A stretch of 64,000 nucleotides of DNA from Pectobacterium actinidiae (lineage in GTDB: Bacteria > Pseudomonadota > Gammaproteobacteria > Enterobacterales > Enterobacteriaceae), in NCBI RefSeq assembly GCF_000803315.1, contig NZ_JRMH01000001.1:620001-684000 (forward strand), in the 5' to 3' direction. Each line of letters begins with the position of its first letter. The stretch's first letter is position 1. Under the pieces are notes generated by a model. The model made no database searches and was not told where the DNA came from. It saw only the letters and a program-made list of their open reading frames with translations. This document shows positions 7,901 through 60,976 of the stretch, piece after piece. The translations under genes and the position numbers were made by a program.

Positions 7901-8485
7901 GGATTTCTGTGGCAGAAGCTGACGGATGACGTCATCGCTCAGCGGCTCAATCTTATTGATTTCGTGTGAGGTACGGAAACCGTCGAAGAAATGGATAAAC
8001 GGCAGGCGGCTGTTCAGACTGGCGATTTGCGAGATCAGCGCAAAGTCCTGTGCTTCCTGCACATTGCTGGCGCACAGCATGGCACACCCCGTCTGGCGCA
8101 CCGCCATGACGTCCGAATGATCGCAGAAGATGGAAAGCGCATGCGTCGCAACCGTACGGGCAGCGACATGCAGGACGAACGGGGTTAGCTCACCGGCCAG
8201 CTTATACAGCGTGGGGATCATCAGCAGCAGACCCTGCGATGAGGTAAACGTGGTGGCGAGTGTACCCGTCTGCAATGCGCCGTGGACGGTAGCGATCGCG
8301 CCGCCTTCCGATTGCATTTCAACAACGCGGGGCGTATCTCCCCATATATTCAGCCCACCGTCGCTAGACCAGGCGGCCGCGTGTTCAGCCATGCTGGAAC
8401 TGGGAGTAATCGGGTAGATGGCGATGACTTCATTGCTTCGCCAAGCCACAGAAGCGACTGCGTTATTACCGTCGGTGGTGATCAT
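4952..8485 (-). CDS. nifJ: Pyruvate:flavodoxin/ferredoxin oxidoreductase
   Basis: A complete single-chain PFOR of 1177 residues, the family's usual length. Domain order from the N terminus: pyruvate-binding domain with IYPITPSSSMAEHAA near residue 25, the gamma domain, two [4Fe-4S] clusters (CTQCNHCVAACPHS and CTGCNLCVEVCP, about residues 690-755), then the TPP domain with CSGCGETP and NATGCSSIYGGN supplying the proximal cluster cysteines, and a C-terminal Cys near CYSNTGGQQS. It decarboxylates pyruvate to acetyl-CoA and reduces flavodoxin or ferredoxin. The gene stands alone, with no nif genes nearby, so a role in redox or anaerobic metabolism like E. coli YdbK is likelier than nitrogen fixation. 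Confidence 0.95.
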   Translation of the reverse strand: MITTDGNNAVASVAWRSNEVIAIYPITPSSSMAEHAAAWSSDGGLNIWGDTPRVVEMQSEGGAIATVHGALQTGTLATTFTSSQGLLLMIPTLYKLAGELTPFVLHVAARTVATHALSIFCDHSDVMAVRQTGCAMLCASNVQEAQDFALISQIASLNSRLPFIHFFDGFRTSHEINKIEPLSDDVIRQLLPQKSIDAHRERALTPERPVIRGTASNPDTFFQAREATNRWYDAAYEHVEQTMKDFAAATGRQYQPFEYYGHPEATKIVVLMGSGVGTCEEVIDTLLTRGEKVGVVKIRLYRPFSAKHLLAVIPQTAKSIAVLDRTKEPGALAEPLYLDVMTALAEAFSAGERSLMPRVIGGRYGLSSKEFTPQCIQAIFNELALANPRPRFTVGIYDDVTNLSLPLPEQHFPSSASLEALFYGLGSDGTVSATKNAIKIVGETTPMFVQGYFVYDSKKAGSLTVSHMRVGPHPINAAYLIDQADFVACHQWQFIDKYSMVERLKPGGVFLINSPYTSDDLWHRLPQEVQAGLNQRNARVYCINAAKIARECHLGARINTVMQMAFFHLSQILPADVAVEKLRTAIAKSYGSKGQELVERNWQALSATLEALAEVQLEAVNPDSPRWPPVVSDAAPDFVKTVTAAMLAGLGDTLPVSALPPDGTWPTGTTKWEKRNIAEEIPLWQPQLCTQCNHCVAACPHSAIRAKVVQPDAMENAPASLQSLDVKARDMRGQKYVLQVAPEDCTGCNLCVEVCPAKDRQNPEIKAINMESRLDNLTAEKENFDFFLQLPEIDKSTLERIDIRTSQLISPLFEYSGACSGCGETPYIKLLTQLYGDRLLVANATGCSSIYGGNLPTTPWTTDANGRGPAWANSLFEDNAEFGLGFRLSVDQHRQRAVRLLNKLAPQLPPDLVNALQEESIAPDLRRQQIEQLRGLLAAINDTDAKLLASEADHFVDKSIWLIGGDGWAYDIGYGGLDHVMSLSENVNVLVLDTQCYSNTGGQQSKATPLGAVTKFGEKGKRKARKDLGINVMMYGHVYVAQISLGAQLNQTVKAIQEAEAWPGPSLIIAYSPCEEHGYDLAFSHDQMRQLTATGFWPLYRFDPRRAEEGKAALVTDSRPPSNSLSETLMKEQRFRRLNSMMPEETAQLYEEAELDLRRRFDFLTMMAGKAEKNPQE

Positions 8486-8870
8486 GACTTATAGCCTTAT
8501 TGCTCACTAAGCCTTTCATTTTTCATGGCCCTTTGGGGCGATGAAAATGATTAGGCATAAACGAAAATACGATTTTTATCGGAGGATTATCGCATTTCAG
8601 GAAAAAATAGGGTGGAACGATGTGTGCGGAGTTGTATCAAACTGTGTTTTATCCCCGTCACACTTCAAGCTGCATGTGCGTTGGCTTTCGTCTGAGGGAG
8701 AGCCTGAGTTTCCTAAAGTTGGACATATTATACACCGCTGAGCGGATTGATGTCTTTTTGTACCTATTGAAGGGTACCGATGCATGATTTTGTTTGCTCA
8801 TTAGTGCCATGACAGGTAGCGTGCTTATACTAAAATAACATTTTTAATGAATGTATGAAGGAACCGAACG
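8486..8870. other. Intergenic region with interspersed repeat
   Basis: This separates divergent nifJ and the gene at 8871. It contains a copy of the short interspersed repeat at 8651-8700. The rest is AT-rich and should contain both promoters. I could not identify a confident FNR or ArcA site by eye. Confidence 0.5.
8651..8700. repeat. Interspersed short repeat, copy 1
   Basis: Contains CCGTCACACTTCAAGCTGC followed by ATGTGCGTTGGCT. Related sequences occur at 27845-27887 and, inverted, at 43143-43179. All are intergenic. I recognise the core (cgtcataCTTCAAGCTGCatgtg) as a common intergenic repeat of Pectobacterium and relatives, but cannot measure its copy number here. Confidence 0.6.
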
Positions 8871-9296
8871 ATGGCAAATGATGAAATAAAAAATAAACTG
8901 GTTTCCGTACTGGCTTCACAACAGGCGCAGGGAAAAACGCCAGAACAGGCCGTCGAACACATCCTTCAGGCATTGGGTGGGCGAGCGGGCGATGTGTCCC
9001 GTATTTCAGTTTTGACATCGACATTAATTGCCGACGTGCTTTATACCGTGTATCAGGATGCGATAACACACCAGCAGATCGCGGTGATTTTACGCAAATT
9101 GGGTTACGCTGCTCGCGATATTGCCGTTGCATCACACGCCATCTACCCTCAGTTGACGGTTCAGGAAATAGCCCAACTTTTACAGAGCCCGGAGATTTAT
9201 CCAACGATCGATCGCACTGCGCTACTCGATGCGCTGACCTACGCAAAGTTTTCCACTGCGGAAAGCGAGCAGGCGGCTGACGATCTCGGCGTTTAA
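8871..9296 (+). CDS. Conserved-looking helical protein of unknown function
   Basis: 141 residues starting at an ATG preceded by GAAGGAACCGAACG. I do not recognise a family. The composition is Ala/Gln-rich with few aromatics, no signal peptide and no membrane segment, and the sequence reads as a row of short amphipathic helices separated by polar turns. Two regions look loosely repeated: TPEQAVEHILQALG near 22-35 and TVQEIAQLLQSP near 99-110, suggesting a helical-repeat or DNA-binding-like fold. It stands alone between divergent nifJ and the convergent LysR gene. Codon use resembles its neighbours, so it is probably a resident gene. Confidence 0.65.
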   Translation: MANDEIKNKLVSVLASQQAQGKTPEQAVEHILQALGGRAGDVSRISVLTSTLIADVLYTVYQDAITHQQIAVILRKLGYAARDIAVASHAIYPQLTVQEIAQLLQSPEIYPTIDRTALLDALTYAKFSTAESEQAADDLGV

Positions 9297-9369
9297 TACC
9301 AGAACAATTTGCTACCGGAACAGAACCGAAAATCAGACAGTCAGGCTTGTGATTTTCCTATCGCCGCTA

Positions 9370-10305
9370 TCAGTTCGTTATGGGATGTGTCACCAGCCTG
9401 TGTAACAGACTTTTAATCCACTGACTGGCTTCCGAACGGCTATTGCGGCGGTGACTGTATATCTTCACGCGATAGGGTGGCACCGTGAAAGGCAAGGCGT
9501 GAATCCGTAAGGGCAGGAATTGTGCAAAGATTGTCGCGACATTGCGGGGTAATGCCATGATCAGCGTTGAATCGGCGATGATAAACGGCGCACTCATCAT
9601 GGAAGGCGTCTTTAGTGCGATATGACGTTTCTTGTTGAGCTTATCCAGCGCGTAGTCAATCACCCCGCGGGACTCATTCCAGGGCGTTACGACAAGATGC
9701 CGGGCGGCTAGGTAATCATCCAGCGTAAGCGCCCTGCCTGACAGATAATCCGCGGCGGTGATGATGACATAGCTGTCTTCAATCCAGTCTATCTCCTCAA
9801 TTTCCCTGTTCTCCGATTGCGTCATGTCGGTGAACCCTAAAGCAAAATCGATTTTCCCTGCCAGTAAATCCGTAATCGCGACCTTTTGCGGCGAATAAAC
9901 CAGATTGAATTTGATATGGGGTGCCAGCTTTTCCATGTGCGCCATCAGGGTTGGAAACACCGAAAACGCGGTGTAATCGGTGATGGAAAAGGTGAAACTT
10001 TCCGTGCTGCGGGCGGGATTAAAGCGTGGACGCGGCGTCAGACCTTGCGTCAGTAGCGCCAGACTTTCCGCGATCGGCTCCGCAATATCGTCCGCCAATA
10101 CGGTCGGATGCATGGTGTTGCCTACGCGAAAAAACAGCTCATCGGAAAACGTATTGCGCAAGCGCGTCAGCGCGTGGCTCACCGCCGATGCGCTCATCGC
10201 CAGCTCTTTTGCCGCTGCGGCGACGGATCGATGCTGATACACGCTGTTAAATACCACCAGTAAATTTAAATCGATACGTCGCAAATCGAGATGCATGATG
10301 TTCAT
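9370..10305 (-). CDS. LysR-family transcriptional regulator
   Basis: 311 residues from the ATG at 10305, chosen because LDLRRIDLNLLVVFNSVYQHRSV is the canonical LysR N terminus; a longer frame to 10395 only adds unrelated residues. The winged helix-turn-helix (residues 8-65) has AAAKELAMSASAVSHALTRLR, then the co-inducer-binding domain (about 95-300). The pattern (DLNLL, SFTFSITDYTAFSVFPTL) resembles the NahR/LeuO/YbeF type. It is divergent from the GNAT gene at 10413, with 107 bp between, so that gene is the likeliest target. The ligand is unknown. Confidence 0.85.
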   Translation of the reverse strand: MNIMHLDLRRIDLNLLVVFNSVYQHRSVAAAAKELAMSASAVSHALTRLRNTFSDELFFRVGNTMHPTVLADDIAEPIAESLALLTQGLTPRPRFNPARSTESFTFSITDYTAFSVFPTLMAHMEKLAPHIKFNLVYSPQKVAITDLLAGKIDFALGFTDMTQSENREIEEIDWIEDSYVIITAADYLSGRALTLDDYLAARHLVVTPWNESRGVIDYALDKLNKKRHIALKTPSMMSAPFIIADSTLIMALPRNVATIFAQFLPLRIHALPFTVPPYRVKIYSHRRNSRSEASQWIKSLLHRLVTHPITN

Positions 10306-47259: not shown

Positions 47260-48687
47260 TCACGGGACGCTGGGAAATAAGCGCGCTCCATTTGATTCTA
47301 TGACACCTTGATACCAGTAAAAACTTTTCTTTTTGATGCGGCGCAGATCTTTCAGATCGAATTCGTCACGGTTCACGTAAATAAACCCGTAGCGTTTACC
47401 GTAGCCCTGATGGGTGCTGACCACATCGATCGCCGACCACGGACAATAGCCAATAAGATCAACGCCATCGCTGATGGCGAGCTGCATCTGTTCAATATGG
47501 CGAGCAATAAAATCGATGCGATATTGATCGTCGATTGTACCGTCGGCCTCAAGCTTATCCGGCGCGCCCATGCCGTTTTCCGTAATCAGGAGCGGCAGAT
47601 GATAGCGCTCGTAGGTTTTCCGCAGTGTTAAGCGTAAGCCAATAGGATCGATCACCCAGCCATAAGGCGTTTTATCAACGTGCGGGTTTTCCGCTGCGCG
47701 ATAGACGCCGGGTTCGCCCAGCATGATTTGCTGATCGCCCGCGCGGGCGCTGACATCCGACGCATCGCCTTTGCTGGCGGCAATGGTGGCGGTGGAGTAG
47801 TAGTTGATCGCCACGTAGTCGGGCTTTCCTGACTGTAGGATATCGTCATCGCCGGGTAATTTTTCCGGTGCCAGACCGCGATCTTCCAGATAACGCCAGG
47901 CCAGCGCGTTGTAGCGGCCATGCACGGCAACATCCAGAAAACTCCAACAGCGCAGCGTTTCCCAGTTGTGTGCGGCGATAGCATCTTCCGGTTTGCTGGT
48001 GGCCTGATACATAGACGTGGTGTTGATCGCCGGACCAATCAGGCCATTGGGCGCGAGTTCGTGACACAAGGCCATGACCTGAGCCTGCGCCAACATCATG
48101 TGGTGGTTTTGCTGATATAGCACTTTTTTAGACGGTAAAACTCCACCTTCCGGCAGGCCAATCGCGCCGGGATGCAGAATCATGGTGTTCTGCTCATTGA
48201 TTGTCAGCCAATATTTTACCTTATCGCCGAAATGCGTAAACAGCGTGCGGGCGTAGTGAACAAAGGCATCAATCGTGGCGCGATTCTGCCAGCCGCCTTG
48301 TTCTTCAAGGCAATAAGGCAAGTCGAAATGGTAGAGCGTGACGACTGGTTCGATATTGTGCGCGTTCAACTCATCAATCAGATTGTTGTAAAACGCGATA
48401 CCCAGCGGATTGATGGCACCAGTGCCATCGGGAAGAATACGTGTCCAGGCGATAGAGAAGCGATAGGCCTTTAAGCCCAGCTCCGCGAAAAGCTGCACAT
48501 CTTCTTTAAACCGATGGTAGTGATCGCTGGCGACGGTGAAGTCGGCAGTGTTTTCCGGGTGCTGGCATTGATCAATGATCGACGGGCTTTTCCCATCGGC
48601 CTGCCAGCCACCTTCTACCTGATAAGCCGACGTCGACGCTCCCCACAGAAAACCTGCCGGGAAGTGTTTTTGCTGTTGATAGTGCAT
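47260..48687 (-). CDS. bglA: 6-phospho-beta-glucosidase (GH1)
   Basis: 475 residues from the ATG at 48687 (family-like start, HFPAGFLWGASTSAYQVEGG). Acid/base Glu is in LTINEQNT near 170 and nucleophile Glu in LLITENGMGAPD near 375. KKSFYWYQGVIESNG at the C terminus contains the residues that bind the 6-phosphate. It splits phosphorylated beta-glucosides (arbutin, salicin, cellobiose) delivered by BglF. It lies 64 bp downstream of bglF. A strong hairpin (48713-48743) separates them. Confidence 0.94.
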   Translation of the reverse strand: MHYQQQKHFPAGFLWGASTSAYQVEGGWQADGKSPSIIDQCQHPENTADFTVASDHYHRFKEDVQLFAELGLKAYRFSIAWTRILPDGTGAINPLGIAFYNNLIDELNAHNIEPVVTLYHFDLPYCLEEQGGWQNRATIDAFVHYARTLFTHFGDKVKYWLTINEQNTMILHPGAIGLPEGGVLPSKKVLYQQNHHMMLAQAQVMALCHELAPNGLIGPAINTTSMYQATSKPEDAIAAHNWETLRCWSFLDVAVHGRYNALAWRYLEDRGLAPEKLPGDDDILQSGKPDYVAINYYSTATIAASKGDASDVSARAGDQQIMLGEPGVYRAAENPHVDKTPYGWVIDPIGLRLTLRKTYERYHLPLLITENGMGAPDKLEADGTIDDQYRIDFIARHIEQMQLAISDGVDLIGYCPWSAIDVVSTHQGYGKRYGFIYVNRDEFDLKDLRRIKKKSFYWYQGVIESNGARLFPSVP

Positions 48688-48712
48688 ATTTTTCTCACAT
48701 ACAGGGAGACTG

Positions 48713-48743
48713 AAAAGCATTGGGCAGGGTGCCCAATGCTTTT
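48713..48743. other. Hairpin between bglF and bglA
   Basis: Perfect 13-bp arms AAAAGCATTGGGC and GCCCAATGCTTTT with loop AGGGT. On the minus strand the right arm is followed by CAGTC, not T, so read-through is expected and the structure may set mRNA stability. Confidence 0.75.
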
Positions 48744-48751
48744 ATGGATCG

Positions 48752-50668
48752 TCAGGCATTCACTTTAATGATGGTATCCATCGGGGCGATCGGCTGTGGT
48801 GCGGTGCAGACGACGCTGGCGTACTCATCGCTATTGATAATCACGACTGGCGTAACCGGGTCATAACCCAGACGCGTGATTTCATGCAGATCGAAGCTAA
48901 TTAGCCTGTCGCCAGCGATGACACGGTCGCCCGGTTTGATATAGCCGGTAAAGTGCTTGCCGTTGAGGTTCACCGTGTCCAGACCGACGTGAATCAGCAA
49001 TTCCAAACCGTTGTCAGCCCGGATGCCGATGGCGTGTTTAGACTCAAGGAACGTGATGATTTCGCCACTGACTGGCGCGACCACTTCACCGTTGTCAGGA
49101 ATAATCGCCACGCCTTGCCCCAGTAATCCCTGTGAGAATACGTCATCGTTGATGTCGCTCAGCGCGACCAATTTGCCGGACAGGGGACTCATAATCGCTT
49201 GCTGTTCCGCGTGGCCTTCTGCGGCCTGCGTTTTTTGCGCGGTATCGGCTACCGGTGCGGCTTGACGTTGGTTTGCCTGAGCCGAGTCGGTTTGGGCACT
49301 GTCCGTTTCATCCACTGGATCGTCGAATCCCATGATCCAGGTGAGAGCAAACGTGACGACAATCGCAATGGCGCAGGTGATCAGCGCATGGACGATGTTC
49401 ATCGGGTTTTCACCAATGAAAGCAGGCAGCGCTGCCAGCCCCGGCGAGACGAAGGCGTAGCGAACCAGCCCAGCCAGCCCGGCATAAATCCCCGCACAGC
49501 CCCCACCAATCATGGCGGCAATCAGCGGTTTCTTCAGTTTCAGCGTCACCCCGTACAGAGAAGGTTCGGTGATACCCAGCAGCGCGGTGAAGCCCGCCGA
49601 AGAAGCCAGCTGTTTCAGATTCTTGTTCTTGGTTTTAAACGCGACGCACAGTGTGGCGGCACCCTGAGCAATGTTGGAAGCCAGCATACCGGGCCCGTTG
49701 ATCATTTCGAAGCCGTTATGGGTAAGCTGTGAGGTGGCAATCGGCGTCATCGCCCAGGCCGTACCGGTGATCACCAGGAACGGTTGCAGGCCACCCATCA
49801 GCATCGGGATTAACCAGCTTGCCTTGCCGTCAATGATGGCCGCGCCGCTGGCGACCAGATCGTTGAGGAAAATACCGAAAGGCCCAATCACCACTAACGC
49901 CAATGGCGCGGTAAACAGCAGTACGATCATCGGTTTGGTGAAGAAGGTGATCATCGATGGCGAGACTTTTTCAGCGAATCTCTCGATGTAAGACATGATC
50001 CACACGGTGAGAATGATCGGTAACACCGATCCGGCATAGTCCGCTAGCCGTACCGGAATACCGATAAAGCTGATTGGCCCGCCTGATGCTAACAGCTGAG
50101 CCAGATTCGGGTGCAGCAGTGCGCCAGCAATTGTCATCGCCAGAATCGGGTTACAGGCGAACTTGATGGAGGCACCGTAAGCCAGCAGCACGGGCAGGAA
50201 GAAAAAGGCCGCATCGGAGATGGTATCCAGCAAGCGATAGGTCGTGCTGTCGGCAGAAATTAAACCAGTCAGCTTGAGGATTGCCAGCAGTGCTTTGATC
50301 ATCCCTGCGCCGGTAATTGCTGGAATGACGGGGGTAAAGGTGGTGGAAATCACGCTGATGATTTGCGTGAAAATGCCGCCTTTTTTCTGCTGCTTGTTGC
50401 CAGCATTGCGCTGGCTGTTCATCTCGCCAATCTCATTCAAAATCGCCCGGTAGGTGACTTGAACGTCGTTGCCGATCACCACCTGAAACTGGCCGCCGCG
50501 ATCGACCACGCTGATGACGCCGGGAAGTTTAGCAATCGCCTCTACCTGTACGGCATGGCTGTCGTTGAACTCGAAACGTAAACGGGTGGCGCAGTGGGTC
50601 AGTTTGCTGATGTTCTGCTTGCCGCCGCTCAACGCGAGGATGTCGACTCCAAGTTTTTGATAATTCAT
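48752..50668 (-). CDS. bglF: Beta-glucoside PTS transporter, EIIBCA
   Basis: 638 residues from the ATG at 50668 (AGGGTAAAACT upstream). Order B-C-A: EIIB with phospho-Cys26 in THCATRLRF; EIIC membrane domain, about residues 100-460; a Gln/Ala-rich linker; EIIA of the glucose type with the phospho-His in LELLIHVGLDTVNLNG near 555. It imports and phosphorylates beta-glucosides and also phosphorylates BglG to switch it off without substrate. It heads the bgl operon. Confidence 0.95.
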   Translation of the reverse strand: MNYQKLGVDILALSGGKQNISKLTHCATRLRFEFNDSHAVQVEAIAKLPGVISVVDRGGQFQVVIGNDVQVTYRAILNEIGEMNSQRNAGNKQQKKGGIFTQIISVISTTFTPVIPAITGAGMIKALLAILKLTGLISADSTTYRLLDTISDAAFFFLPVLLAYGASIKFACNPILAMTIAGALLHPNLAQLLASGGPISFIGIPVRLADYAGSVLPIILTVWIMSYIERFAEKVSPSMITFFTKPMIVLLFTAPLALVVIGPFGIFLNDLVASGAAIIDGKASWLIPMLMGGLQPFLVITGTAWAMTPIATSQLTHNGFEMINGPGMLASNIAQGAATLCVAFKTKNKNLKQLASSAGFTALLGITEPSLYGVTLKLKKPLIAAMIGGGCAGIYAGLAGLVRYAFVSPGLAALPAFIGENPMNIVHALITCAIAIVVTFALTWIMGFDDPVDETDSAQTDSAQANQRQAAPVADTAQKTQAAEGHAEQQAIMSPLSGKLVALSDINDDVFSQGLLGQGVAIIPDNGEVVAPVSGEIITFLESKHAIGIRADNGLELLIHVGLDTVNLNGKHFTGYIKPGDRVIAGDRLISFDLHEITRLGYDPVTPVVIINSDEYASVVCTAPQPIAPMDTIIKVNA

Positions 50669-50699
50669 AGTTTTACCCTGTGTTGACGCCAATTAGGCC

Positions 50700-50982: not shown

Positions 50983-52977
50983 TTACTTCAGCAGCGCCTG
51001 CGCTTTTTCGACCACATTATCGACGGTGAAGCCGAATTCTTCGAACAGCAGTTCAGCCGGAGCCGATTCGCCGAAGCTCGTCATGCCGACAATCGCACCG
51101 TTCAGGCCGACGTACTTGAACCAGTAGTCTGCAATACCCGCTTCAATCGCCACGCGTGCCGATACCGCTTTCGGCAGCACCGCTTCACGGTAGGCCGCAT
51201 CCTGCTTGTCAAACGTATCCGTTGACGGCATGGATACCACGCGTACCTTGCGGCCTGCGGTAGTCAGCTTGTCATACGCACCGACAGCCAGCTCGACTTC
51301 AGAGCCGGTGGCGATCAGGATCAGCTCAGGCTGGCCGTCGCTGTCTTTCAGCACGTAACCGCCTTTCGCCACGTTCGCCAGCTGTTCAGCCGTACGTGAC
51401 TGCTGTGCCAGATTCTGACGAGACAGGATCAGCGACGTAGGGCCGTCCTGACGCTCAATGGCGTATTTCCACGCCACCGCGGTTTCTACCTGATCCGCCG
51501 GACGCCAGTTGCTCATGTTCGGCGTCACGCGCAGGCTGGCCAGCTGTTCAACTGGCTGGTGTGTCGGGCCGTCTTCGCCCAGACCGATAGAGTCGTGGGT
51601 GTAAACGTAGATGCTGCGGATTTTCATCAGTGCAGCCATACGCACCGCATTACGCGCATATTCCACAAACATCAGGAAGGTCGCGGTGTACGGCACAAAA
51701 CCACCGTGCAGCGCAATCCCGTTGGCAATCGCCGTCATGCCGAATTCGCGCACGCCGTAGTGGATATAGTTGCCCGCGTGGTCTTTATCCAGCGAGACCG
51801 AGCCGGACCAGATGGTCAGGTTGCTCGGTGCCAGGTCGGCAGAGCCGCCCAGGAATTCCGGCAGCAGTTTGCCGTAGGCTTCCAGCGCGTTCTGTGAGGC
51901 TTTGCGGCTGGCGATTTTCGCCGGATTGGCCTGCAAATCGTCGATAAATTTCTGTGCGTCGGCCTGCCAGTTGGCTGGCAGTTCACCGCTGGTGCGGCGA
52001 GTGAATTCGGCAGCCAGTTCAGGATACGCGCTGGCATAGGCGGCAAACGCCTCATCCCAGGCTGCTTCCTTACGCTGACCGGCCGGTTTCGCATCCCAGG
52101 CAGCATAAATGTCAGCCGGGATATCAAACGGCGCGTGCGTCCAGCCCAGCTGTTCGCGGGAAGCCGCGACTTCCGCCTCACCCAGCGGGGCACCGTGGGA
52201 GTCGTGCGTACCGGCCTTGTTCGGTGAACCGAAGCCAATCACGGTTTTGCACATCAGCAGCGACGGCTTGTCAGTGACAAGCTGAGCTTCGCCGATGGCG
52301 CGTTTGATGGCGTCCGCATCGTGACCGTCCACGCCGCGCACCACGTGCCAGCCGTAGGCTTCAAAGCGGGCCGCAGTATCATCGGTAAACCAGCCTTCAA
52401 CGTGACCGTCGATGGAGATGCCGTTGTCATCATAAAACGCGGTCAGTTTGCCGAGCTTCATGGTGCCGGCCAGCGAACAGACTTCGTGGGAAATCCCTTC
52501 CATCATGCAGCCGTCACCGAGGAAGGTGTAGGTGTGATGATTAACAATCTCGTGGCCCGGACGGTTGAACTGCGCGGCCAGCGTGCGCTCGGCAATCGCC
52601 ATGCCGACCGCGTTGGCAATCCCCTGACCCAGCGGGCCGGTGGTGGTTTCGACGCCGGCGGTGTAGCCGTATTCAGGGTGACCCGGAGTTTTGGAGTGCA
52701 ACTGACGGAAATTTTTCAGTTCTTCAATCGGCAGGTCGTAGCCGGAGAGATGCAGCAGGCTGTAAATCAGCATGGACGCGTGGCCGTTGGACAGCACAAA
52801 GCGGTCGCGGTTGGCCCAGTTAGGGTTGGCCGGATTATGGTTGAGATAATCGCGCCACAGCACTTCGGCGATATCGGCCATGCCCATCGGTGCGCCCGGG
52901 TGACCGGATTTGGCTTTCTGCACCCCATCCATGCTCAGCGCGCGGATAGCATTGGCAAGTTCTTTACGAGAGGACAT
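50983..52977 (-). CDS. tkt: Transketolase
   Basis: 664 residues, full length. TPP-binding motif [38 protein letters not shown], substrate His residues in SGHPGAPMG and [12 protein letters not shown], and [16 protein letters not shown]. It moves C2 units among pentose phosphates. The gene is 15 nt downstream of talA and ends the acid-sugar gene series, like the talA-tktB pair of E. coli. The main housekeeping tktA is presumably elsewhere. Confidence 0.95.
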
Positions 52978-52992
52978 GCTTGACTCCAGACG

Positions 52993-53943
52993 TTACAGCT
53001 TGGCCGCCAACAGCGCTTCCAGCTTTTGTTGATCGGCAGCGAACAGGCGAATGCCTTCCGCCAGTTTATCGACGGCCATCGGATCCTGATGGTGCTCCCA
53101 GCGGAATTCGGCTTCAGACAGCGGCGAAGGATGATGGAACGCTTCGGTTGACGGCGTCAGTTGACGTTCGACCGGAGCATTACTGTTTTTCAACTGTTCC
53201 AGCAGCGCGGGGGAAATCGTCAGGCGATCGCATCCCGCCAGCGCCAGAATCTGTTCCACTTTGCGGAAGCTGGCGCCCATGATGACGGTTTGGTAGCGGT
53301 GGCGTTTGTAGTAGTCGTAAATATTACGTACAGAAATGACGCCGGGATCGTTTTCTGCCTGATAGTCGCGGGTGGGCTGTTTTTCCTGATACCAGTCATA
53401 AATCCGGCCGACAAACGGGGAGATCAGAAAGACGCCCGCTTCAGCGCAGGCGCGCGCCTGTGCAAACGAGAACAGCAGCGTCAGGTTACAGTTGATCCCT
53501 TCTTTTTCCAGCTCTTCAGCCGCGCGAATGCCTTCCCAGGTGGCGGCGAGTTTGATCAGAATGCGCGAGCGCGGAATGTCTTTTTCCTGATACATCCCAA
53601 TGAGTTTGCGCGCTTTCGCTACGCACATACCGCGATCGAACGAGAGGCGGGCATCCACTTCAGTGGAGATGCGCCCCGGAATACTTTTCAGCACTTCTGC
53701 ACCGATATTCACGGCCAGTCGGTCACTGGCGTTGATGAGCCGCGTTTCCGGGCTACCACCTTGCTGGTTTGCATAGGCAATCGCGTCATCAAACAGCGGT
53801 TGATACTGGGGCAGGGTGGCGGCTTTCAGAATCAGAGACGGATTTGTGGTGGCATCTTGCGGTGAAAATTGACGAATAGAGTCGATATCGCCGCTGTCGG
53901 CGACCACCACGGTAAACTGCTTAAGGGCTTCTAATTGATTCAT
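52993..53943 (-). CDS. talA: Transaldolase A
   Basis: 316 residues from the ATG at 53943 (AAGGAGCTCAAGC upstream); a longer frame to 54009 is not supported. The Schiff-base Lys lies in [24 protein letters not shown] at the N terminus and VDARLSFD are conserved. It transfers dihydroxyacetone between sugar phosphates. It forms an operon pair with tkt. The 170-nt gap to the rpiB-like gene holds a hairpin (54078-54102), so the pair may also have its own promoter. Confidence 0.95.
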
Positions 53944-54077
53944 GCTTGAGCTCCTTGGCATAGCAAAGAAAGTAATCAGCGGAATCGTATCCGCCGCGGC
54001 ATGCCACACTGCCCCATTGCTGGGTAGAATGACATGCGCTTTTTCTGATTACTGCGATTGGAAAAGAATCTGAAGAG

Positions 54078-54113: not shown

Positions 54114-54572
54114 TTAACGAGCGTTTTCCTGATGCTCGTAATAGCCGATCTTTTCGACTTTTGATGCGGAGCCACCGCCTTCAAATTCAGACTCCAGCCA
54201 GGCGCTTATAATCTCTTTTGCCAGCTCTGGACCAATGACCCGCGCACCCAGCGCGATAATCTGCGCGTTGTTACTTTTTCTGGCTCGCTGAGCGGAATAA
54301 GTGTCATGGCACTGAGCGGCACGAATGCCATTGACCTTGTTAGCCACGATACTCATGCCAATCCCAGTGCCACATAGCAGAATCCCGCGTTCGTACGTTC
54401 CCGCCTTAATCGACACCGCTACCGTATGGGCAACGTCGGGATAGATGGCGTTATCCTGATTTTTGTCGCTGCTAAAATCGACCCAGGGAATAGCGATCGA
54501 GTCCAGATGGCGGGTGATAATATCGCGTAAACTCCAGGCTGCATCGTCTGCGCCAATAGCGATTGGTTTCAT
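54114..54572 (-). CDS. RpiB/LacAB-family sugar-phosphate isomerase
   Basis: 152 residues. AIGADDAAWSLRDIITRHL opens the fold and ERGILLCGTGIGMSIVANKVNGIRAAQCHDTYSAQRARKSNNAQIIALG carries the active-site Cys (LLCGTG), the nucleotide-fold GTGIG and the His/Arg pair. Family members isomerise ribose-5-phosphate, allose-6-phosphate or, in erythritol pathways, tetrulose-4-phosphate to erythrose-4-phosphate. The tpiA-like and four-carbon kinase neighbours favour the last option, which is inference. Confidence 0.85.
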   Translation of the reverse strand: MKPIAIGADDAAWSLRDIITRHLDSIAIPWVDFSSDKNQDNAIYPDVAHTVAVSIKAGTYERGILLCGTGIGMSIVANKVNGIRAAQCHDTYSAQRARKSNNAQIIALGARVIGPELAKEIISAWLESEFEGGGSASKVEKIGYYEHQENAR

Positions 54573-54658: not shown

Positions 54659-55027
54659 TTACTCTTCGAAGAACGTAATCTTTCCTTGCGCTGATAGGGC
54701 CTTGGGTATCTGTCCTGTCAGATGAAGGGTGCCGGGGAGTTCTGCCTTTTCTGCTCCATCAAATAACAGCGTAATGTGTCCCAGTTCTTTCAGGTTTTTG
54801 TTTGCAACATCACCAATTGCGCTAATCGAATACGTGATGCCAAATAATTCCATTTTATGATGAACAGAAAGCGGTTTAATTAACTCGCCATCATGGTGGG
54901 TAATGCAATAATCTCTGATGTCTTTAGGCGCATTATCACTGAAAAGAATGAGGCGTTTCTCAGCCAGAAATAATGCAGCATTTTCACCCACCGAGCTTAT
55001 GACCGCCTGCCAGATAATATGCCTCAT
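54659..55027 (-). CDS. Stand-alone PTS glucitol/sorbitol-type EIIA
   Basis: 122 residues, matching SrlB/GutB in length and pattern: EYC-like DYCITHHDGELI with phospho-His44 (equivalent to His43 of SrlB), GITYSISAIGDVANKNLKELGHITLLFDGAEKAELPGTLHL (residues 64-104). No EIIC gene is present in the window. An EIIB-Gut domain is found instead fused to the DUF1537 kinase at 56185. Its start lies 11 nt downstream of the KdgT-type permease gene. A phosphoryl relay HPr-EIIA-EIIB(kinase) is suggested. Confidence 0.87.
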   Translation of the reverse strand: MRHIIWQAVISSVGENAALFLAEKRLILFSDNAPKDIRDYCITHHDGELIKPLSVHHKMELFGITYSISAIGDVANKNLKELGHITLLFDGAEKAELPGTLHLTGQIPKALSAQGKITFFEE

Positions 55028-55038
55028 GTTTCTTTCCC

Positions 55039-56064
55039 TTATTTTTGCTTATCTGTTTGTGTATTGAGCGCATGGGAAGTGGCGGTTGGTAACGTGTTCT
55101 TTTCTTCCCCTGATGGAATAATGCCTTTTTTCTTCAGTCGATTATCAAACCAGGCAACGAGCACGGGCGCGGTAAGCATGGTAATAATGCTGGCCGTTGC
55201 CAGCTGTGCGGTGGCGGAATCAACAAAAACCTGAAGGCTGGGGTCAGCTTGTGCCACCATGGCAGGCGTGAGGGCTGAGCTAGCAGCGGTGGTACCCAAC
55301 GCGGCACCCAGCGCCGTTTTTCGTTTCAGGAATAGGTTGTACAGGAAGTAGAAAACCAGCCCGGTTATGGCGGAAATGATACCCAGAACAATGCCGGATA
55401 AGCCCGCAGTAAAAACGGTGTGCATACTGGAATTGGCACCGATGGCGAAGGACATGATAATAATCACCAGCGGTTGAGCCGCAGCACAGAGCTGCTTGAA
55501 CTTCTCATCAAGGTTACCCCACATCATGCCGATGAGTAGTGGGATGAGCATAGAGAGCAGGGCTGCGAACGGGATATTGGCTAAACCGCTGACGCCGAGA
55601 ACCACCATCGTGACGAAGGGGCCATCCTTAATACAGAAAACGGAGATGGCGCCGGCATCGCTGGCATCACCGTAGTTACTGCACAGGGCGATATATAATG
55701 AGCTGTTTGAGCTGGTGATACAGGCAATAAATGCCAACGTTGAAATCCCAAAAAAGCCAGCGGGGCCAAAAAAGGTACCCATTCCCCATACGGCCAGTGC
55801 ACCCGCACTGAATTTCAGCATCAGTAGAATAGTGCCTTTATAGAGCGGAAGCCCTGCCTGGCGAATATTAATTGACGAACCACAGATGAGAAGAAATATC
55901 CCCATCATCGCGCTAGAACCCGCCTTAAATAATGCCGTTGTAGGGCCGCCTATTTGTAATAATGATGGTGCGAAGGTATTCATCATTATCGCCGCCAGCA
56001 GGGGGATAATGATCAGTCCGCCAGGGACTTTATTCATTTTCTCAAGAATGTTTATATTTTTCAT
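55039..56064 (-). CDS. KdgT-family (2-keto-3-deoxygluconate permease-like) transporter
   Basis: 341 residues with about ten hydrophobic helices. The openings MNKVPGGLIIIPLLAAIMMNTFAP and TTAASSALTPAMVAQADPSL are typical of the KdgT family of acid-sugar/H+ symporters. Here it probably takes up the four-carbon acid sugar used by the neighbouring kinase and dehydrogenase (for example threonate or erythronate), not KDG, because no KDG genes are nearby. That is inference from the neighbourhood. Confidence 0.87.
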   Translation of the reverse strand: MKNINILEKMNKVPGGLIIIPLLAAIMMNTFAPSLLQIGGPTTALFKAGSSAMMGIFLLICGSSINIRQAGLPLYKGTILLMLKFSAGALAVWGMGTFFGPAGFFGISTLAFIACITSSNSSLYIALCSNYGDASDAGAISVFCIKDGPFVTMVVLGVSGLANIPFAALLSMLIPLLIGMMWGNLDEKFKQLCAAAQPLVIIIMSFAIGANSSMHTVFTAGLSGIVLGIISAITGLVFYFLYNLFLKRKTALGAALGTTAASSALTPAMVAQADPSLQVFVDSATAQLATASIITMLTAPVLVAWFDNRLKKKGIIPSGEEKNTLPTATSHALNTQTDKQK

Positions 56065-56184
56065 GGTGTTTCTCTCGTGTAGGGTAGAGCAACATCCAGG
56101 TCTGTTAATCAGACCTATGCAATACGTCAGATTTATTATTTATATCGACTTTCTTTTTTGCTCTTTTTTACCGTTTTTTATTTA

Positions 56185-57900
56185 TTACATCGTTTCCCGG
56201 TGAATATGATGAATAATGGTATGGATGATATCTTCCGGTCCGGTTAGGCCACCTTTCCCGACACAAATTAGCCCTTCATAATCACCACCAATAATTTTGA
56301 CCAGATCGGTTTGGGGAATAACGTAATCCACCATTTCAATGCCGTTAGCACCGAGCTGCTTGAGCACGTTGACCATCGTGTCCCCGCCCGTCATATACAG
56401 CCCTTTAATCTCAGAGGCGGCGGCATCAAGCACCGTTTTGACGATATTTCCCAGACCCTGATTGATATTTTCTGCTGCCTGACCGTGCGCCAGCCCAAAG
56501 CGCTGCTCTTCCTCATTAAGATCGAGCAGACGGCCTGTTAATGCGGATTCAAATACGAAGATGGCATTGGCGTGAGTTTTCACGCACTCCAGCGCCTGCT
56601 TGACGACTCTTTCTACTTCGATATCCGCCGAATGTTCTTTATCAATCAGCAATTCGGCATCGATAGGAATATGGCAAACGCGTGGGTCGGTTTCAATCAG
56701 TGCGGTAAGCTGCTTTTTGGTGACCGGAGTTGCGCTGCCTGCTACGACAATAATGGAACCCTGTTGTTGTTCCTGAGGAATGAGCGCTTTCTCTTTGCGT
56801 TCCTCGTCGCGGATCATTTCTCGGGTGAAGGCCAGACGCTCGGTGAAGGGGCCAGGGTCGACGGCCAGCACATTCCAGTTCAGCTTGGTGACTGCGCGAG
56901 CAATATTCTCTACATCGGCGAGTGAAATCGCATCGACGACAATCACGCGAGCGCCTTCCCGCTGCTGCTGAACCAGCGCATCGCTGATGGCGTGATAGCC
57001 TTTTAGCACGCAAGAAAGGGGAATATGTTTCACCTGATGATGGGTTTGCTCACTAAGCAGCCCAGGAACAAAGGTTTCCGTCACCGGCGTACGAACATCT
57101 TTAGCGACATCGGTGCAGGATAGGGCAACGGAATCAATCACCGAGTAGCCGCCGACGACAATACGGCGTGACTGTGGCATGGCAGGCACCACCACAGCGA
57201 CAGTTTCCTGCGGCAGTACTTCCAGCATGGCATCAATTTCATAGCCAATACCGCCGCGCAGCGTAGTATCAACCCGTTTGGTGAAATACACCGCACCGCG
57301 TTCCAACAGGGCTTGCGTCGCGTTTCTTACGCGATTTTTTGCTTCTGCTTTGGGTAGCGGTCGGCTATCGCTGCTGATCACCATGGCCTGCCAGTCTGAT
57401 TCACAGTCCGTAAACGACGTGGTATTAAAAAAGGCCGCGGTTTTCATGCCGCTGCGTGCCAAGAGAACGCCAATCGTTGTCGCGCCAGTGAGATCGTCAG
57501 CGACGATGCCGAGTTTATCTCCTTGTTTCCCCTCTGCCCGTAATCGAATTCCGGCTGGCGTGACATCCGAGACGTAGATCTCTTCCCGAATGTATTCCGC
57601 CAGCGGCCCCGTTTTTGCCGTTGGATGGAGATTGATTGTCGGGATCCCACGTTTGGGATAAAGACCGCAGCGCAGCGTACCGCCGCAGTCGATGACCACT
57701 AAGCCGATCTCCTGTTCATCCGGTTCGCCGTGTTTGAAGACATCCACAGATTCCCAGCCAGTGAGTTCCATTAACCGATCGACTACGGTGGGGCGAATGC
57801 CCCCGGTGATGTAGGCAATCTTTTTCCCTGGTGTGACATTAATAAGCAGTGGTCCGCCCCAGCCTTTACCGCCTCTAATAATTTCCAAATATCGCGTCAT
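56185..57900 (-). CDS. PTS EIIB-Gut domain fused to DUF1537 four-carbon acid-sugar kinase
   Basis: 571 residues, two domains. Residues 1-115 match the N-terminal EIIB domain of Srl[44 protein letters not shown] and [20 protein letters not shown], with candidate phospho-Cys72 or Cys78. Residues 128-571 are a DUF1537 (OtnK/DtnK) kinase: [23 protein letters not shown] at its start, then [19 protein letters not shown], and near the C terminus MTGGDTM and [12 protein letters not shown] in place of the more usual GGETS and KSGNFG. Kinases of this family phosphorylate 3-oxo-tetronate, threonate or erythronate at C4 with ATP. The fused EIIB has no EIIC; it probably controls, or phosphorylates through, the kinase. 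Start ATG at 57900. Confidence 0.88.
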
Positions 57901-57933: not shown

Positions 57934-58938
57934 TTAGTGCTTCATTTTCCAGTAACGTGCGGCAACCAGCGTCGATTCCAACATGCTGACCGTGCCCGCT
58001 TTACCCGTTCCCGCAATATCAAAAGCCGTGCCGTGGTCGACAGAACTACGCATAAACGGTAAACCGAAAGTGATGGTGATAGAGCGCTCGAAATCGAGTG
58101 TTTTGCAGGCGATATGCCCCTGATCGTGGTAGAGCGACAGAATGGCGTCGTAATGCCCTTGTTTTCCGAGGTGGAAAACCGAATCCGCCGGAATCGGGCC
58201 TATCGCGTTGATGCCCATCTCCTGAGCGGCTTTGACGGCAGGAATCAGGTTGTCTTTCTCTTCATGACCAAATAGGCCGTTATCTGAGGCGTGCGGGTTG
58301 AGGGCGGCAACGGCGATACGCGGATTGTTGATATTGAGTGCGGTGAATTCATGATGGATTTGCTGAACGCAAGCGAGGACACGTTCTTTGTTGGCGTAGT
58401 CGCAGGCTTCTTTCAGGGCGATATGGCGGCTGACAAAAAACACCCGCAGTTTTTGCACATGAAACATTGTCAGGCCGTAATCTGAACCGGTTTCGACCTG
58501 ATAAATTTCGGTGTGGCCTGGTAATTTACAGCCCGCGAGTTTTATCGCTTCTTTATGAATCGGAGCGGTAGAGACGACATCGATGTCACCGGCCATACCT
58601 AATTCAATGGATTTCATCACGTAATCAAGAGACATCTTCCCAGCCAACTGCTGGACCTTACCCCATTCGATGCTATCGCAATCATATTCACCGGTTTCCA
58701 ATACATCCAACGTGCCCCAGGTGAATTTGGCCTCGGCGGGAGAGGTGATGACATTGATCGAAAAATCACAGTGTTTGATGGTCATCGCGCGGCGGATGAT
58801 GGGGACCGAACCGATGAGGAAAGGGCGGCACTCTTCATACACGTCTTTATCCATCATGGTCGCTACTGAGATTTCAGGGCCAATCCCTGCTGGATCGCCG
58901 ATAGTCAGAGCAACAACAGGTTTTTTTGCGGTCGACAT
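57934..58938 (-). CDS. pdxA2: PdxA2-type 4-phospho-threonate/erythronate dehydrogenase
   Basis: 334 residues. PdxA family: TIGDPAGIGPEIS at the N terminus, metal-ligand His in LPGHTEIYQ, substrate region AALNPHASDNGLFG and YHDQGHIACKTLDFE. The VVSTAPIHKEAIKLAG segment is typical. Next to a DUF1537 kinase it most likely oxidises 4-phospho-D-threonate (or erythronate), which decarboxylates to dihydroxyacetone phosphate, rather than acting in pyridoxal synthesis. First gene of the leftward unit, divergent from tpiA. Confidence 0.88.
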   Translation of the reverse strand: MSTAKKPVVALTIGDPAGIGPEISVATMMDKDVYEECRPFLIGSVPIIRRAMTIKHCDFSINVITSPAEAKFTWGTLDVLETGEYDCDSIEWGKVQQLAGKMSLDYVMKSIELGMAGDIDVVSTAPIHKEAIKLAGCKLPGHTEIYQVETGSDYGLTMFHVQKLRVFFVSRHIALKEACDYANKERVLACVQQIHHEFTALNINNPRIAVAALNPHASDNGLFGHEEKDNLIPAVKAAQEMGINAIGPIPADSVFHLGKQGHYDAILSLYHDQGHIACKTLDFERSITITFGLPFMRSSVDHGTAFDIAGTGKAGTVSMLESTLVAARYWKMKH

Positions 58939-58997: not shown

Positions 58998-59182
58998 TTT
59001 TGTTTTATGGGATTTTACGGTTTAATTAAGAAATAGCTTTGAATTCGATCACATTAAAGACAATTTATTTCTTTTTTATACGTTTTAGTGATCGAGCATT
59101 TGTTTGTTGTGTGAATATAAGTTTGGTGTCAGGACTTTTGTTACGCTACGGCGAAAGGCACAGTGTGAAAGGAGGAGATGAC

Positions 59183-59977
59183 ATGAAAAAAGTGATGATA
59201 GGCACGAGCTGGAAAATGAATAAAACCCGACAGGAAGCAATAGACTACTGCGCGGTGTTATCCCGACAGCTTAATTCTGTGGCGGGTGAATGCATTCAAC
59301 CCTTTGTGATTCCCCCCTTTATGTTGATAAGGGAAGTAACCGAGTACCTGTCTGCGCACAAGGTGAATTGCCTGACAGGGGCGCAAAATATGCACTATGC
59401 TGACAGCGGCGCGTGGACGGGAGAGGTTTCTCCGGTGATGGTATGTGATTGCGGTGCGACGCTTGTCGAGCTGGGGCATTCCGAACGGCGGCAACACTTT
59501 GCGGAAAATGATGCGGATATCCAGAAAAAAGTGCAGGCGGCACTGCGCTATTCGTTACGTCCGCTGGTTTGCGTGGGGGACAGCGCACAGGAGAAGGCGT
59601 GGGGTGTTTCCAGAGAAACTGTTATTCGGCAAATGAAAATTGCGCTTGCAGGTTTACATGCAGAGCAGGCGGAAAACGTCATCATCGCGTATGAGCCTAT
59701 CTGGGCTATTGGCGAAGGGGGAACGCCTGCCACCGCACAGGAAGCGCAAGCTATTCACGCTGCTCTGCGTCAGGCGTTGGTTGCCCTGTATGACGAAGAC
59801 ATTGCTTCTCGAATGACGCTTCTGTACGGCGGCAGTGTGAATCCGCATAATACGAGCGAACTTATTCAATGCGTCGATATTGACGGATTATTTATTGGCA
59901 GGTCTGCATGGGATGCGGAGCATTTCTGCCAGCTGGTACGCAGTGTTTCAGCATTGTTGAATGAACAGGGTGAGTGA
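59183..59977 (+). CDS. Triose-phosphate isomerase paralogue (TpiA2-like)
   Basis: 264 residues from the ATG at 59183 with a near-ideal AAAGGAGGAGATGAC leader; a longer frame from 59039 is rejected. TIM barrel catalysis: Lys in GTSWKMNKTR, His in ELGHSERRQHF, Glu in IIAYEPIWAIGEGG and phosphate loop LLYGGSVNPHN. The sequence differs from housekeeping TpiA (for example SWKMNK with CAVLSRQLNS). In erythritol pathways such paralogues isomerise tetrulose phosphates. Here it could also convert the dihydroxyacetone phosphate made by PdxA2. It is followed by the SorC regulator. Confidence 0.87.
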   Translation: MKKVMIGTSWKMNKTRQEAIDYCAVLSRQLNSVAGECIQPFVIPPFMLIREVTEYLSAHKVNCLTGAQNMHYADSGAWTGEVSPVMVCDCGATLVELGHSERRQHFAENDADIQKKVQAALRYSLRPLVCVGDSAQEKAWGVSRETVIRQMKIALAGLHAEQAENVIIAYEPIWAIGEGGTPATAQEAQAIHAALRQALVALYDEDIASRMTLLYGGSVNPHNTSELIQCVDIDGLFIGRSAWDAEHFCQLVRSVSALLNEQGE

Positions 59978-60010: not shown

Positions 60011-60976
60011 ATGAGTGAATTTGATTCAGACAGTGAATTACTAACGGAAATAGCCGTCGCGTATTATGAAAATCAACAAACTCAGGAAGAGATAGCCAGC
60101 CGTTTTGGTATCTCTCGTATTAAAGTTGGACGTTTGTTGAAGCGTGCGCGGGCGGAAGGGATCGTGGAAATCAATGTCCGTTATCATCCGGTATTTAGTT
60201 CTCAGCTCGAACAACAATTTATTAAGAGCTTCGGCATCAAACGTGCGCTTATTGCTATTGACCACCACGATGAAGACGAACAACGCCAGCAGGTGGCCTC
60301 GCTGGTGTCCACTTACTTGTCCAGCATTTTGAAAAATGGCATGTCCGTGGCAGTTGGGCAGGGGCGTAACGTGGCGGCTGTCGCCAGTCACGTGGGCGTT
60401 TTTCCAGAACGACACTGCAAATTTATCTGTGGTATTGGCGGTACGCAGCGCGATGGCGAGCTGATTGATGCCGATCATATCAGCCGTCATCTGGCGCGAA
60501 AATTCAATGCCACAAGCGAAACGCTGTACGCCCCTGCTTATGTTGAAAATCCGGCGCTGAAATCTTCCTTTATGCAAAACCGTTTGATTAATGACACGCT
60601 TGAACGTGCAAGCAAAGCGGATATTGCGCTGGTGGGATTAGGCGATATGAACGAAAACAGCTTCATGGTTCAACTCGGCTGGTTCACCTCACAGGAAATC
60701 ATCACGGCGCGTCAGGATGAGGGGGTTGTCGGTGATATCGCTGGCTATGCTTTCTTGGATATTCAGGGGCGACCTGTCGATACGGTGATGAATGACAGAG
60801 TGATTGGCCTGAGTCTTGATCAGCTTCGCAAAATCCCTTACGTGATCGCTATCGCCTCTGAGAACACTAAAGCAACGGCGATTCTGGCTGCGTTACGCTC
60901 CGGTATTGTGGATGTTATTGCCACCAGTGCTAGCAACGCGCGTACGGTGTTGAGTTTGATCTCCGCCAAACACTAG
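60011..60976 (+). CDS. SorC/DeoR-type sugar-binding transcriptional regulator
   Basis: 321 residues. The helix-turn-helix near the N terminus is in AVAYYENQQTQEEIASRFGISRIKVGRLLKRARAEGIVEI (20-60), followed by the sugar-binding domain with KFICGIGGTQRDGELIDADHISRHLA and ALVGLGDMNENSFMVQLG, ending VDVIATSASNARTVLSL. It lies 33 nt after the tpiA-like gene and most likely controls both divergent units through the 58939-59182 region, with a phosphorylated sugar as effector. A hairpin terminator follows. Confidence 0.9.
   Translation: MSEFDSDSELLTEIAVAYYENQQTQEEIASRFGISRIKVGRLLKRARAEGIVEINVRYHPVFSSQLEQQFIKSFGIKRALIAIDHHDEDEQRQQVASLVSTYLSSILKNGMSVAVGQGRNVAAVASHVGVFPERHCKFICGIGGTQRDGELIDADHISRHLARKFNATSETLYAPAYVENPALKSSFMQNRLINDTLERASKADIALVGLGDMNENSFMVQLGWFTSQEIITARQDEGVVGDIAGYAFLDIQGRPVDTVMNDRVIGLSLDQLRKIPYVIAIASENTKATAILAALRSGIVDVIATSASNARTVLSLISAKH

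Follow-up and report, generated by a model that had tools for sequence, protein, structure and literature searches.

Here, we describe a protein in which an EIIB domain of the glucitol (Gut) type, a component of the phosphotransferase system (PTS), is fused to a DUF1537 acid-sugar kinase. It is encoded at 56185..57900 on the minus strand of a 64,000-nucleotide stretch of Pectobacterium actinidiae contig NZ_JRMH01000001.1 (the window), and the sequence comparisons suggest that its EIIB, phosphorylated through EI, HPr and EIIA, probably regulates the kinase, itself presumably ATP-dependent. A sequence-only reading of the window had recognized an SrlE-type EIIB at the N-terminus of the 571-residue kinase, and Pfam agrees: in a single 571-amino-acid frame, EIIBC-GUT_N covers residues 6-125 (57526..57885, minus strand; 161.1 bits against a cut-off of 22.8), followed by SBD_N at residues 130-355 (197.8 bits) and NBD_C at residues 384-558 (106.2 bits), both above cut-off. 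Both DUF1537 kinase domains are present, and the kinase half (130-558) is complete. Alignment places Cys72 and Cys78 in the EIIB domain, the former being the candidate phospho-cysteine by the role that we take over from E. coli SrlE. The domain matches the solved glucitol EIIB chain 9x2m (E 7.6e-47) and is about 55-68% identical to SrlE-type EIIBs; the fusion misses the TIGR00825 (EIIBC-GUT) cut-off (170.9 of 458.7 bits), aligning only with profile positions 3-122 of 331. The kinase half shares the fold of solved DUF1537 members. Its nearest curated model is D-threonate kinase (NF047819, 206.9 of 450 bits), followed by 3-oxo-tetronate kinase (NF043035, 158.9 of 350 bits), and it remains far below both equivalog cut-offs.

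The same reading had noted a separate SrlB-type EIIA two genes downstream, and PTSIIA_gutA (109.4 bits) indeed identifies a stand-alone, 122-amino-acid EIIA at 54659..55027 (minus strand), with a KdgT-family gene between it and the fusion. This EIIA has His44, the candidate phospho-histidine, presumably its active site as in E. coli SrlB, and misses the curated cut-offs for sorbitol-transporter EIIAs (TIGR00849, 108.3 of 189.55 bits; PRK10377, 121.4 of 165 bits). The reported lack of an EIIC at the locus extends to the entire genome (4.92 Mb, 3 contigs, completeness given as 100), where the fusion is the single PF03612 match, the operon EIIA is the single PF03829 match, and Gut EIIC (PF03608) has no match, non-Gut EIIC families lying outside the partner search. 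E. coli was every time the sole positive among the control genomes in these searches. We found the fusion in 26 distinct genomes, 23 of which were searched for all three Gut families and three (G1149, G1140, G1135) for a linked EIIA only. A Gut EIIA is present in all 23. Gut EIIC is missing from thirteen, in each of which the fusion is the sole Gut EIIB and the operon EIIA the sole Gut EIIA; this is the co-occurrence of EIIA without EIIC that the first reading had suggested looking for. The remaining 10 have a Gut EIIC elsewhere, seven of them with a Srl-operon EIIA as well as a linked one and three (Tolumonas G400, Zophobihabitans G401 and Gilliamella G403) with Srl-operon EIIAs only. These 10 genomes would permit the fused EIIB to go on feeding a membrane EIIC, such as SrlA/SrlE, with the kinase as a passenger, but the absence of Gut EIIC from the other 13, the window's own genome included, makes this explanation barely credible, at least for the Gut-type partners that the search covered. 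Overall, an EIIA linked to the fusion occurs in 23 of the 26 genomes, three further Pectobacterium genomes among them. The genome of a truncated copy in a Tolumonas metagenome-assembled genome (MAG; G405) has one unlinked EIIA, and the Serratia H1w operon is split between two contigs, with the EIIA adjoining the permease on the second (L115). The EIIA tree sets the operon EIIAs apart from SrlB, in either one group or two.

The fused EIIB domain is under selection. Cys72 and Cys78 are both kept in 21/21 readable fusions (20 genomes plus a Klebsiella pneumoniae record), and pairwise ratios of nonsynonymous to synonymous substitution rates (dN/dS) are 0.014-0.045 in four pairs, similar to those of NBD_C (0.009-0.036). 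The residue alignment, the fusion-marker residues, the kinase tree, and the EIIB tree and dN/dS were computed without three broken copies (L012, L020 and G504) and a truncated one (L013), while the broken rows L070 and S_L057 remained as long branches in the EIIA and EIIB trees. The active-site histidine is kept in 19 of the 20 operon EIIA genes readable at that position, PL152 included (23 rows representing 21 genes, the window and Kosakonia each appearing twice and L070 being broken). The EIIB is joined to the kinase directly before the strand of the conserved DDxTG motif (residues 135-139), and the span from Tyr109 to Asp136 measures 28 residues in 21/21 readable fusions. The span is constant despite the variability of residues 119-129, which outside Pectobacterium are just 9-64% identical to those of the window, and this argues for a set position of EIIB relative to the kinase, as judged from the alignment. 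From the same point to the C-terminus, SrlE has 10 different lengths in 13 proteins, a rough comparison that uses 13 of 15 loci and includes the entire C-terminal part.

The kinase site of the fusion also looks intact. The nucleotide-domain invariants G505, G506, D507, K549, G550, G551 and G554 are kept in 21/21 fusions, and at 47 of 49 columns invariant in EIIB-free relatives, across both kinase domains, the fusion has the majority residue (534 and 566 differ). These observations bear on a rival explanation in which phospho-Cys72 is the donor to either the bound acid sugar or ADP bound to the kinase, which would then be a soluble enzyme driven by phosphoenolpyruvate (PEP), like DhaKLM. The joining of EIIB directly before the DDxTG strand with fixed spacing would suit such a transfer, and a precedent for a PTS phosphoprotein as kinase donor is reported (Gutknecht 2001, cited in PMC2405797). 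However, phosphate supply is disfavoured because the kinase invariants are kept and because EIIB-free relatives, one of them (G425) from inside the fusion clade, retain the kinase, pdxA2 and the permease, and we regard it as quite unlikely. Slightly less likely still is a soluble, transporter-free "enzyme II" in which a kinase has taken the transporter's place and receives the phosphate of Cys72 in its active site; PEP as well as ATP would then drive acid-sugar phosphorylation, the load on the PTS setting the donor.

G425 serves as a natural control. Its 475-amino-acid kinase (L113 7923-9350) is 67% identical to that of the window and lacks EIIB, with no EIIB match in its 27 N-terminal residues and no match to Gut EIIA, EIIB or EIIC in the one-contig genome, and it persists beside pdxA2 and the permease. 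The kinase tree places G425 inside the fusions (support 100/98 for the 11-member set that includes it); a tree constrained to group the fusions to its exclusion is worse by 19.7 log-likelihood units (approximately unbiased test, p 0.018). Because G425 is nested among fusions and has 17 of the 19 residues by which fusion kinases are distinguished, its EIIB was most likely lost, as far as the tree and these residues tell. Two changes are required on the kinase tree, which we interpret as a single gain and a loss in G425; independent fusion events were considered and rejected. In the EIIB tree, a single branch sets the fused EIIBs apart, with weak support (54/73). A remoter EIIB-free relative (about 50% identical; G206) likewise has no Gut EIIA, EIIB or EIIC match in its genome, and Clostridiales and Actinotignum-type loci combine the kinase with pdxA2 and show no EIIB or EIIA in the available flanks (that of L017 is short). 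The window's own genome encodes two more DUF1537 kinases, 28-30% identical.

These data support a scheme in which EI and HPr would phosphorylate the operon EIIA, or SrlB in species without a linked EIIA, and phospho-EIIA would in turn pass phosphate to Cys72 of the fused EIIB. When preferred PTS sugars are absent, EIIB would stay phosphorylated, with no EIIC to drain its phosphate; when they are consumed, it would be dephosphorylated backwards via EIIA and HPr. Its phosphorylation state may then alter the kinase through the fixed-length linker. The phosphorylated form is expected to be the active one, which would give the same sign as the CRP-like site described below, and this sign is a guess. 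A relay from the PTS to a soluble kinase had been proposed by the sequence-only reading, and its comparative side is borne out by the presence of a Gut EIIA in all 23 fusion genomes searched, the lack of Gut EIIC in 13 of them, the retention of the cysteines and the absence of both EIIB and EIIA from G425, while phosphotransfer itself is what we infer. Of the two functions it had offered for the relay, regulation is favoured and phosphate supply is not.

Several observations weigh against regulation through EIIB phosphorylation. The dN/dS of SBD_N (0.003-0.029) is mostly below that of EIIB, and EIIA evolves faster than its neighbours in two pairs (0.077 and 0.093). When the kinase tree is rooted at its midpoint, the three genomes with unlinked EIIA branch deepest within the fusion clade, so that the pattern of linked and unlinked EIIA does not reflect many independent events: linked EIIA is essentially one kinase-tree clade. 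The joint absence of EIIB and EIIA is a single event, that of G425, where the RpiB-type, isomerase and regulator genes are missing from the locus as well, indicating that other changes went along, and G425 is among the long branches flagged by the tree program. Finally, the EIIA of Pantoea sp. A4 (L010 10814-11170) has Ile at the position of the histidine while its EIIB is intact, and no second Gut EIIA was found in that genome. Non-cognate EIIAs can feed EIIBs in Bacillus subtilis, according to PMC6148471. By analogy, such feeding could account for the Pantoea exception, which counts against the scheme all the same. The persistence of the domain pair in Pantoea sp. A4 despite the missing histidine would fit EIIB being a docking or assembly module, with EIIA or unphosphorylated EIIB binding the kinase, the permease or the regulator and phosphotransfer being incidental; the near-invariance of Cys72, Cys78 and the EIIA histidine argues that it is the chemistry that is selected, and we consider docking unlikely.

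The fusion is patchily distributed within its genus yet occurs in several other genera, and its recurrence in 26 distinct genomes, which the first reading had proposed to look for, rules out chance or mis-assembly as its source. Full-length relatives are 57-99% identical, those of P. fontis and P. polonicum being 97-99% identical to the window's. In the collection scan we found the full-length fusion at 12 loci, 2 of them frameshifted, plus the truncated MAG copy; it also occurs in 8 of the 25 genus members scanned (one copy frameshifted), 12 of 392 in the family sample (one with an internal stop), which G425 with its EIIB-free kinase also belongs to, and 2 of 394 in the order sample, and PF03612 occurs only in the window's own genome among the 369 of the class sample. 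These samples overlap, and hits with identical contig and coordinates were taken as one genome (G354=G403, G435=G397, G1143=G394, G1145=G399, G1148=G404); flanks of L025-L036 comprise only about 1.5 kb. Host genera are Pectobacterium, Kosakonia, Intestinirhabdus, Mixta, Pantoea, Serratia, Enterobacter, Gilliamella, Zophobihabitans and Tolumonas. Among 5426 E. coli genomes, 261 match the query and none at more than 80% coverage, the ten among the matches listed being srlE. One of 72,556 plasmid records covers at least 80% of the query, namely the K. pneumoniae record with the fusion; because this stretch (L146, NZ_CP098173.1 170274-187944) also carries lolCDE, nagK and cobB along with the operon, it looks like chromosomal DNA labelled plasmid. 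Three of the 26 genomes have broken copies. Most locus genes are frameshifted in Pectobacterium sp. PL152 (L012) and Enterobacter sp. EA-1 (L020), which looks like sequencing error, while in G504 (L112) the fusion (7995-9713) and the RpiB-type gene (6091-6566) are broken and pdxA2, permease and EIIA stay open, reflecting either a decaying copy or a sequence error.

On the minus strand, the operon runs from pdxA2 through the fusion, the permease, EIIA and an RpiB-type isomerase to transaldolase and transketolase. PdxA2 (57934..58938; PRK03743, 592 bits, cut-off 470) is probably a dehydrogenase/decarboxylase of a phosphorylated acid sugar. The KdgT-family permease (55039..56064, minus strand; family match 364 bits, KdgT equivalog cut-off missed with 161.5 of 453.8 bits) probably takes up an acid sugar, which would be phosphorylated by the kinase and then oxidatively decarboxylated by PdxA2. 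The RpiB-type gene (54114..54572, minus strand) exceeds the cut-off of the RpiB subfamily model (188.9 bits against 135), with D-erythrulose-4-phosphate isomerase as second-best model, below cut-off (173.8 of 240 bits); profile matches identify transaldolase A (52993..54009) and transketolase (50983..52977), both on the minus strand. Past the end of transketolase, at 47260-50692, translations judged by eye indicate a GH1-type glycosidase and a beta-glucoside-type PTS EIIBCA. Divergent from the operon, on the plus strand, lie a gene for a triose-phosphate-isomerase-type enzyme (59183..59977), with its ATG at 59183 behind AGGAGGAGA, and one for a SorC/DeoR-type sugar-binding regulator (60011..60976, profile match). 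The EIIA gene follows the permease directly, with a gap of 11 nucleotides, and this proximity would agree with another target altogether, phospho-EIIA or EIIB controlling KdgT-type uptake (inducer exclusion) or the SorC-type regulator; control of PRD regulators by EIIB-like domains is described in PMC6148471. We judge this improbable, since EIIB sits on the kinase by fusion and the Pfam scan of the regulator detected no PRD domain.

The divergent promoter region contains a CRP-like site matching 9 of 10 consensus positions (59038..59053, plus strand). Sites of this quality occur in 12 of 16 divergent regions, hand-picked for a clear divergent layout, compared with 0.8% of single-base shuffles, and the other four regions score 7 or 8. 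The whole window has three such matches against 1.6 expected, so that the site draws its weight from conservation. CRP senses the state of the PTS via EIIA-Glc and adenylate cyclase, to which the fused EIIB would contribute rapid control at the level of the enzyme in response to the same input. Regarding the substrate, which we also infer, a four-carbon acid would yield dihydroxyacetone phosphate, making transaldolase and transketolase superfluous. The presence of the triose-phosphate-isomerase-type gene, the RpiB-type gene and the transaldolase/transketolase pair instead suggests a tetrulose phosphate product converted to erythrose 4-phosphate, hence perhaps a five-carbon acid as substrate. 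This remains a tentative reading, somewhat less likely to be right than wrong; the two isomerases score above cut-off with the ordinary models for triose-phosphate isomerase and RpiB, which speaks against it.

A transport EIIB thus appears to have been turned into a receiver built permanently into a catabolic enzyme, served by a dedicated EIIA in most species, while about half of the species lack any Gut transporter. If this is confirmed, the PTS would directly switch the enzyme with which an enterobacterial acid-sugar pathway begins; it would also be a warning for annotation, as "sorbitol PTS EIIA/EIIB" genes in genomes with the fusion need not imply sorbitol uptake. We found no description of an EIIB(Gut)-DUF1537 fusion among the titles and abstracts listed in searches of an open-licence library, which misses most subscription papers, nor in the accessible portions of PMC4921024, PMC12506659, PMC12928451, PMC2405797 and PMC6148471.

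The fusion shares SBD_N, NBD_C, their residues and the fold with DUF1537 kinases such as DtnK and OtnK (3dqq, 5dmh, 1yzy, 4xgj, 4xg0, 4xfr) and differs from them in its extra N-terminal EIIB and in scoring below both equivalog cut-offs. Known DUF1537 loci have pdxA2 and permease neighbours in common with ours, and EIIB-free pdxA2-kinase-KdgT loci exist, so that the initial impression of a locus unlike these holds for the PTS parts and not beyond them. The glucitol PTS (SrlA-SrlE-SrlB) has a similar EIIB, an EIIA of the same Pfam family, and the cysteine and histidine kept in the window's proteins, whereas the system described here lacks EIIC and the membrane half of SrlE and carries its EIIB on a kinase. 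Otherwise, the PTS is known to control metabolism by way of EIIA-Glc binding, phosphorylation by HPr and regulators with receiver domains. PTS chains with a soluble end point are already known from DhaKLM, PRD regulators and a triosephosphate isomerase/EIIB model. In DhaKLM, a PTS subunit supplies phosphate to dihydroxyacetone kinase, and there too the chain ends on a soluble kinase without EIIC; by contrast, the fusion has a nucleotide domain that appears intact, and there are relatives that lack EIIB. PRD regulators such as MtlR use an EIIB-type domain as a control receiver rather than for transport, according to PMC6148471, but the target of the receiver here is a metabolic enzyme, not a transcription factor. 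The triosephosphate isomerase/PTS EIIB fusion (NCBIfam PRK14905), compared by model name, also joins a soluble metabolic enzyme to an EIIB, although in that case the EIIB is of the glucose/sucrose type and the enzyme is unrelated.

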